The translations under genes were made by a program, and so were the position numbers. Shown here piece by piece: positions 17,820 through 19,866 of a stretch of DNA of 64,000 nt (the stretch's first letter is position 1; every line of letters begins with the position of its first letter). The stretch is taken from the NCBI GenBank assembly GCA_012976225.1, contig JAAVVG010000011.1, positions 806,001 to 870,000 on the forward strand, written 5' to 3'. This stretch comes from Golubevia sp. BC0850. Taxonomy: Eukaryota > Basidiomycota > Exobasidiomycetes > Golubeviales > Golubeviaceae. The notes under the pieces are model-generated. The model was not told where the DNA came from. It ran no database searches and worked only from the letters and a program-made list of their open reading frames with translations.

Positions 17820-19866
17820 TTAACACCTTTCAAGAACAACAGCAATACCTTGACCACCTCCAATACAAGCGGCTCCAACAGCGTACTTCTTGTCTAGACG
17901 ATGTAGATTGTGAGTTAAGTTGGCAATGATTCTGGCTCCAGAAGCTCCTAGAGGATGTCCGAGGGCTAAGATACAAGTAGAGAAGGCAGAAGACGTCAGG
18001 AACATAAAACACTAAGCAAACGGAGGGAAAGAACTACGCAAAGTGTACAAGAGACTCACCAATGGCTCCTCCGAACATGTTACACTTCTCGTCTGGCAAA
18101 GCAAGCTCCTTTTGGACACTCAAGAACTGAGCAGCGAAAGCCTCATTGATCTCAAACATGTCAATGTCATCAATCGAGAGGGAAGCACGAGATAGAGCCA
18201 TCTTGATAGCTTCGACTGGTCCAATCTGTTGAGAGAGAAACATCGAGAGTCAGTTGCCGTCTGACCGCTCCCCACCTCATCGGAGACTGCTTCTTGAAGT
18301 TCCAATGAAGAATCCAATTCTTTACTCACTCCCATGATGCTAGGTTCACAAGCAGTGATTCCATAACTGACAACTCTAGCTAGAGGTTTTAGTCCATATC
18401 TCTTAAGAGCTTCTTCTCCAGCAATGACATTGGCAGCAGCTCCATCACAGATTCCGGAAGCATTACCAGCAGTGACGGTTCCATCCTTCTTGAAGACTGA
18501 AGGTAATTTCGCAAGAGTTTCAGCAGTGGTCTTTCCTCTTGGGTGTTCATCTACTGAGAAAGTTTCGGTGGTCTATGGAAGAAGATAGAGAAAGAGAACC
18601 GAGGGAAATAAGTGATCAAAGAAGGAAGAATAGAGAAGGGGAGAAGTAGAAAGAAGAATGGAGAGGAATTGCAAAACTCACCTTCTTGACCTTGACTTCA
18701 ACAGGGACGATCTCATCAGTGAAAGCACCTGCCTCGTTAGCCTTTTGCCAACGTTGCTGAGATTGAAGAGCAAAAGCATCACACTGTTCACGAGTGATTC
18801 CGTACTTCTGAGCGAGATTTTCGGCAGTGATTCTGGGGTTCAGAAGAGGAGGGAGAGGACAAAAGAGAAAGGGTGGGGAAGGAAGAAATGAAGGAAGAGG
18901 ACATCAGAATCGCATCTTTCTCGATTGTTCTGAGGGAGTGTGTTAAACAAAACTTACCCTATGAGAGAGGAGGCGAAGAGAGAAGGTGAGCACAGTCGGG
19001 GATAAGGAGAGAGATTAGAACCTTTTCTGCTCTCCAAATGTTTCTACACTGTGCAGAGCTTTTGCCAACCCCCCTATCAAGCCCTCAAAACTTGCGAAAC
19101 CAAACCCAACCCTCTTTGTACTCACCCATTGGAGTTGGAGTAGGGACCATATCAGTCAAAGCAGCAGCCAAAGAATCAACCAATTTCAAATCCACTCCAT
19201 ATCTTCCACCACCGAATCTAACTCCATGAAGAGTGTAAGGACACAAACTCATGTTTTCAGCTCCACCAGTTAGTACCACTTGAGATTCTCCTAAAGCGAT
19301 CTCTTGAGAAGCGTTGATGACTGACTGGAAACCTGAACCACAAAGTCTGTTGACAGTCAAAGCTGGAGTTGTGACTGGTAGACCAGCGTGATGACCAACA
19401 TGTCTTGAAAGGTATGCACCAGAATTATCAGAGATATTGACGTTTCCGAAGATAGTAGATGAGACTTCAGTTCCTTGAGGTAGAGTTGCGAGAGCTGCTT
19501 TGGAAGCGAGTCCTCCTAATTGAGCTGCTGTGAGTTTGCTCAGGGATTGTCCGAAGGCACCGAAAGGCTGTGGAAGATAGCAGTAAGGGGTTTGATGGAA
19601 AGGGAGAGGGGAAGAGATAAAGAGTGGGAGTGGGAGTGAAAGGTGGTGACTATTAGAGCTCTTTCCCTCTCCCTACTGCAGCCAGATTCCCCTCCATATG
19701 AATTCAACCCTGGTAGTGATCAATCTGCTCTTGCTGGATTAAGCTTCCTTTTGTGTCGAACTTGATGTTTTGTCTCCGAAACCTGAACCGTTGTACCCCC
19801 GCAACCGAGTGAGAAGTGAAGACTAGGAAGACTCACTGTACGTTTTGAAGCTACGACGTAAGCCAT
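17820..19866 (-). CDS. ERG10: Acetyl-CoA C-acetyltransferase (thiolase), with a predicted 1-nt exon
   Basis: The exons are 19866-19837, 19567-19126, the single base 18958, 18832-18682, 18572-18330, 18225-18060 and 17965-17820; together they give 392 aa. The enzyme condenses two acetyl-CoA to acetoacetyl-CoA at the start of the mevalonate pathway. There is no presequence, so it is likely cytosolic. Thiolase motifs are [12 protein letters not shown] (acyl-carrying Cys), [30 protein letters not shown] and AACIGGGQG. All junctions except exon 2 to the ITAENL exon are simple. That one is off by one base unless base 18958 is included, which restores the conserved Met-Gly before ITAEN. A 5' UTR intron probably ends about 22 bp before the ATG (TTCCAG). 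Confidence 0.94.
18958..18958 (-). other. Candidate single-nucleotide exon of the thiolase gene
   Basis: On the minus strand a pyrimidine tract ends in CATAG, is followed by one G, then GTAAGT. The flanking introns would be 167 nt (19125-18959) and 125 nt (18957-18833), both typical here. Exon 2 ends with one base of a codon (G) and the next exon starts with one base (A). The added G makes GGA (Gly), which thiolases have at this place. Alternatives are a non-canonical CA acceptor or a one-base sequence error. Confidence 0.7.

Follow-up and report, generated by a model that had tools for sequence, protein, structure and literature searches.

Our analysis of the window, the whole 64,000-nt stretch of DNA, makes it very probable that a thiolase gene on the minus strand contains an exon of a single nucleotide: the 293 nt between two of its coding segments would be removed as two ordinary introns of 167 and 125 nt, and the G at 18958 would be kept between them as a constitutive exon that completes a glycine codon. 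The gene runs from 19866 to 17820 and has seven exons. Exon 1 (19837..19866, 30 nt) carries the start codon, exon 2 (19126..19567, 442 nt) ends in ATG G, exon 3 is the lone G (18958..18958), the second position of a GGA glycine codon, and exon 4 (18682..18832, 151 nt) opens with A ATC ACT (ITAENL). Exons 5 (18330..18572, 243 nt), 6 (18060..18225, 166 nt) and 7 (17820..17965, 146 nt) follow, the last with the stop codon. The sum, 30+442+1+151+243+166+146, is 1179 nt, corresponding to 393 codons including the stop and to a protein of 392 aa.

Exon 2 ends on one codon base, a G before GTGAGT (TGG|GTGAGT at 19126), while exon 4 starts with an A after CCCCAG (CCCCAG|A ATC at 18832), and joining the two directly loses the frame and runs into stops downstream. 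The interval between them reads, on the minus strand, a pyrimidine tract, CATAG, the G at 18958 and GTAAGT, with exactly one base between a canonical AG and a canonical GT (CATAG-G-GTAAGT, 18963-18952). Addition of this G brings the gene back in frame and yields the conserved peptide PTPM-G-ITAEN, the base being required for the reading frame as well as for a conserved residue. Intron 2 (18959..19125, 167 nt) begins with GTGAGT and ends with CATAG, and intron 3 (18833..18957, 125 nt) begins with GTAAGT and ends with CCCCAG. A preliminary description had proposed the same exon ends, the out-of-frame direct join, the lone G with its flanking sites, both intron lengths and the coding length of 1179 nt, all of which the sequence and the gene model bear out. 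Its reading that the fungus splices a one-base exon is likewise favoured by the frame, protein conservation, site strength and two likely cases in the same genome.

Coding potential identified 209 introns in 264 kb of sequence, made up of the window and 200 kb of contig C11; the five found in the thiolase gene were set aside, and the other 204 served to train the donor and acceptor models. The 209 introns have a median length of 135 nt and a 95th percentile of 344, and 163 of the 204 reference introns start with GTRAGT. Specifically, intron 2 scores 11.65 bits at its donor (55th percentile) and 15.1 bits at its acceptor (71st percentile), and intron 3 scores 9.57 bits (27th percentile) and 15.4 bits (73rd percentile). 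Only two donors (19125 and 18957) and four acceptors in the 293-nt interval score above 0 bits, and the one-base exon model employs both of these donors together with the two strongest acceptors. Furthermore, among 299 in-frame one- and two-intron solutions with sites reaching 30 nt into the exons, all sites exceed 0 bits only in the one-base exon solution (weakest site, 9.6 bits), and none of 71 in-frame single joins with sites up to 150 nt into the thiolase exons has both sites above 0 bits. In a search of the last 80 nt for the branch-point motif YTRAY, the only motifs found precede the acceptors by 56 and 71 nt; distances in the reference introns peak at 25-50 nt.

An identical product would result if one intron spanned the interval and ended at a non-canonical CA acceptor, with the cut a base earlier (18834|18833), and an intron-terminal G could be used in this way at the thiolase and at both of the further loci described below. 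We consider this reading highly unlikely, given that the CA acceptor scores −3.2 bits against 15.4 for the adjoining AG and that the internal acceptor-G-donor arrangement would become a coincidence at three loci.

The junction is also constrained at the protein level. In an alignment of the 120 homologs listed as the best among 8000 scored, 119 lack any insertion separating Met from the Thr-Ala/Gly-Glu-Asn motif, and the junction residue is Gly in 118 and Ala in 2, in agreement with the glycine that the preliminary description expected after Met. A join from the downstream donor GA|GTACAA to CCCCAG is in frame and would add one Glu (MGEITAEN), yet this donor scores −7.5 bits, under all 204 reference donors, and the added residue runs against all but one of the listed homologs, leaving this join a negligible probability. 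The sole exception, P0102 (Phenoliferia), has a 21-residue insert at the junction. Because introns must start with GT, the only intron that can account for this insert is a phase-1 one retained behind ATG G, at the same position as in the window's gene. The insert in the deposited protein is likely an annotation error, and its position suggests that the intron site is old and that the base lost from the window's gene may have been on the acceptor side.

The best PDB match of the thiolase is 4c2j, a mitochondrial 3-ketoacyl-CoA thiolase (450.7 bits versus 320.8 for the next), and the protein scores 409 bits against TIGR01930 (cut-off 240.55) over residues 4-408, which places it in the thiolase family as an ACAA2-type member; both searches used a 410-aa version that retains 54 nt of intron 5. 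The gene had initially been called an acetyl-CoA acetyltransferase, a name that is loose in view of its best structural match. The nearest named thiolase among the matches listed is that of Pseudozyma flocculosa (78% identity), and Pseudozyma flocculosa belongs, like Violaceomyces palustris, to the Ustilaginomycotina. A record from the fern Adiantum nelumboides (P0002) holds a smut-like thiolase 77% identical to that of the window and is probably fungal contamination.

The frame conflict, the conserved residue and the strong canonical sites flanking one base can be read directly from the sequence, and the probability that the AG-G-GT arose by chance in its interval is low. When the 293-nt interval was dinucleotide-shuffled 20,000 times, a plausible AG-G-GT appeared in 36 of the products, or in 69 with any middle base, and one as strong as that observed in only 1. 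In addition, no internal AG-N-GT was found at permissive thresholds in 114 other introns of at least 120 nt, and the thiolase site is the sole passing AG-G-GT on both strands of the 264 kb.

These figures bear on the possibility that one base is absent from the assembly or from the genome at a boundary, either as an undercalled G in the GGG that closes exon 2 or as a lost G after CCCCAG, with one intron of about 293 nt as the true structure. Adding a G at either boundary would indeed restore the frame with one intron, as it would in the two further genes, and a 293-nt intron is within the range of the 209-intron set. However, a missing base leaves unexplained why a strong CATAG-G-GTAAGT, matched once in the shuffles and never in the 114 introns, lies exactly where it is needed. 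Moreover, two more genes with a frame conflict were recovered by that motif alone, and their boundaries read GAGTGAGT, without a long G run. We therefore judge a missing base improbable and retain the one-base exon as the preferred reading.

We scanned the genome with a strict G motif, YYYYYNYAGGGTRAGT; a first pattern, CATAGGTAAGT, had been set aside as it lacked the extra G. The strict motif matched 12 places and its reversed control the same number; by itself, then, the motif is uninformative and only the frame test discriminates. All 12 places were inspected (the window and L042-L052), and three of them have a supported one-base exon: the thiolase, an SFM1-like gene (L046) and an ABC1-type kinase gene (L052). 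Among the rest, L047 was worked out by hand as an ordinary exon end, at L044 and L049-L051 the acceptors score under 0 and the places can be read as exon ends, and L043, L045 and L048 were placed neither with the supported nor with the rejected cases. Automatic coding scores were too weak to classify the loci and did not rank the one-base solutions of the SFM1-like and ABC1-type genes first. Allowing A, C or T in the middle position gave 30 matches, versus 50 in the control; none of the 22 inspected (L053-L074) is a supported one-base exon, and L058 was neither supported nor dismissed. L063-L074 were viewed over about 300 nt to either side, a span that a farther donor would escape. A looser G motif gave 43 overlapping rows at 21 places, versus 56 in the control. 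Six of these places were already known, and L075, one of the 15 new places and the one inspected, can be read as the end of an exon within a pyrimidine-rich leader, with no donor above 3 bits within 318 nt upstream. In none of these three forms (strict G, middle base other than G, looser G) is the motif enriched genome-wide over its control (12/12, 30/50, 43/56).

Some of the places visited in these scans have features of their own. L042 (G000:C4:497663-498863, motif offset 602) lies in a gene that we take to encode a membrane protein; worked out by hand, it fits not a one-base exon but an 11-nt exon sharing the same donor, GTCTTCTTAGG, which the gene seems to need (acceptor 17.0 bits, donor 12.8), and the genome probably has other microexons. 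At L045 (G000:C13:461417-462617), in a presumably chitin-deacetylase-like gene, the exon after ...YDLNDY has no recognisable GT donor, and an AG-G-GTGAGT stands in the gap that follows. A 25-base string, CTCCTCTTGTCGGATCAGGGTGAGT, occurs on three contigs (G000:C12:590384, its last 23 bases; C14:3995; C22:10513); the copies on C14 and C22 are near the contig start, and the string may be a subtelomeric repeat.

The SFM1-like and ABC1-type genes seem to need a one-base G exon as well. The SFM1-like protein matches PF04252 (115.6 bits), and its nearest named relative among the matches listed is from Violaceomyces palustris (70%). Its junction peptide reads WALL-E-Y, and the junction Glu is conserved as such in 107 of the 120 relatives listed, with 10 gaps, 2 Gln, 1 Asp and no insertion column; it also aligns with the solved SFM1 structure 5h5d with no gap there. 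The ABC1-type kinase matches PF03109 (108.3 bits), and PDB searches with the ABC1 piece gave no match. Because its relatives are presumed to read E-x-x-LLDHGLY, the ABC1-type gene is the weaker case.

With sites up to 30 nt into the exons, the one-base solution is the best by weakest site at each locus (thiolase 9.6, ABC1 10.1, SFM1 9.6 bits), and the next-best solution is below 0 at the thiolase, 1.8 bits at ABC1 and 1.1 bits at SFM1. A wider enumeration covered single introns only, for SFM1 80 nt upstream. There, the best other single join of the ABC1-type gene has its weaker site at 4.4 bits, and the SFM1-like gene has a rival canonical in-frame join (donor 11.3 bits, acceptor 12.4) lying 122 nt into the exon, which would remove about 41 residues including YRHML, kept in 22 of the 24 relatives shown. 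Since the motif, rather than the frame, led to these two genes, their frame conflict is an independent result, and two more genes that seem to need the same device argue against a lone assembly error. The base is G in all three genes; consequently, an acceptor displaced by one base, or a G missing from a boundary, would yield the same protein at each, and none of the 22 inspected places with another middle base gave a supported case that would exclude a shifted G. A metagenome SFM1 fragment (P0135) is 99% identical over 77% of the query and has one extra Glu, with the one-base exon outside it; judging from this fragment, a close strain is present in public metagenomes.

As the acceptor of intron 2 nearly touches the donor of intron 3, both introns would be recognised across the intron and excised one after the other. 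Skipping of the G at 18958 shifts the frame, with a stop about 58 codons on, so inclusion would have to be near complete whenever the enzyme is made. The same frameshift and early stop could instead mark a frame-broken pseudogene or a regulated, frameshifting splice form, which we regard as most improbable, because the remaining exons show no damage and are conserved, and the 25.8-Mb assembly of 64 contigs yielded no close second copy (13 matches, those outside this gene 33-45% identical).

We infer that the constitutive one-base exon could have originated through loss of a G from a splice boundary, with the frame restored by a cryptic AG-G-GTRAGT within the intron, the route that Nelson and Syed propose for Fusarium CYP621A (PMC12940212). 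Introns 2 and 3 of the thiolase each occur once in the genome, and the six introns flanking the three one-base exons have no similarity to one another or to the 204 reference introns, save one 15-nt match, which leaves an intron-transposon (introner-like) origin unsupported. No Rfam family reaches its gathering score in the window.

The strict motif fits 81 of 204 acceptors and 163 of 204 donors of the reference introns, so the three finds would imply roughly nine G-type one-base exons genome-wide. We lean towards the broader view that such exons are routine in this fungus, with at least three genes (thiolase, SFM1-like and ABC1-type) and about nine of the G type, that they would represent independent frame rescues after the loss of a boundary G, and that basidiomycete spliceosomes may have no practical lower limit on exon length. 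One-base exons are usually absent from annotations, as PMC12940212 and PMC8831610 state for their own genes, and genes that contain them would in consequence appear in annotations as broken or wrongly spliced. Exons of this minimal size may be used regularly in this smut-related fungus, and the loss of a boundary base followed by recruitment of a cryptic exon may be a recurring route to exon birth.

Nuclear one-base exons are already known from Arabidopsis APC11, plant VPS55 and CYP621A of Fusarium, an ascomycete. The preliminary description mentioned one reported plant case, which is true and incomplete: Arabidopsis APC11 has a constitutive one-base coding exon proven by cDNA and reporter constructs (PMC4674806), a 1-nt microexon of VPS55 is kept across land plants, in flowering plants in one of two clades of copies, as seen by RNA-seq and RT-PCR (PMC8831610), and the CYP621A exon is documented in 20 Fusarium orthologs and 18 SRA reads (PMC12940212). 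A placozoan mitochondrial one-base exon has also been reported, and an 8-nt microexon in the basidiomycete Phanerochaete is mentioned in PMC12940212. In titles and abstract openings, with subscription journals mostly outside the coverage, we found no one-base exon from Basidiomycota and no report of several such exons in one fungal genome.

The thiolase gene resembles each of these systems in part. Like APC11, it would have a one-base coding exon between a canonical AG and GT, although the base is A in the plant and G in the fungus, and like VPS55 it has one base followed by a strong GTRAGT donor. CYP621A is also fungal, has AG-G-GT (AGGGT) with the G in the middle of a conserved Gly codon, and was likewise revealed by a phase conflict; CYP621A exons are P450 cases with orthologs and SRA reads, whereas the exon predicted here is in a basidiomycete thiolase. 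As in [D1,2] stwintrons, two fungal introns share one position and would be removed in consecutive reactions. However, in a [D1,2] stwintron the internal intron interrupts the external donor directly behind the first donor base (AG-TRAGT), whereas the middle of the thiolase interval reads AG-G-GTAAGT. Here the second donor already exists in full before any splicing, neither donor is divided and a single base would be retained; we therefore rejected this classification. Drosophila ratchet points are juxtaposed sites in long introns from which nothing is kept. The account of these recursive-splicing points in PMC8605326 describes an acceptor adjoining a donor, as in the thiolase gene, but here the introns are short and one coding base would be kept.
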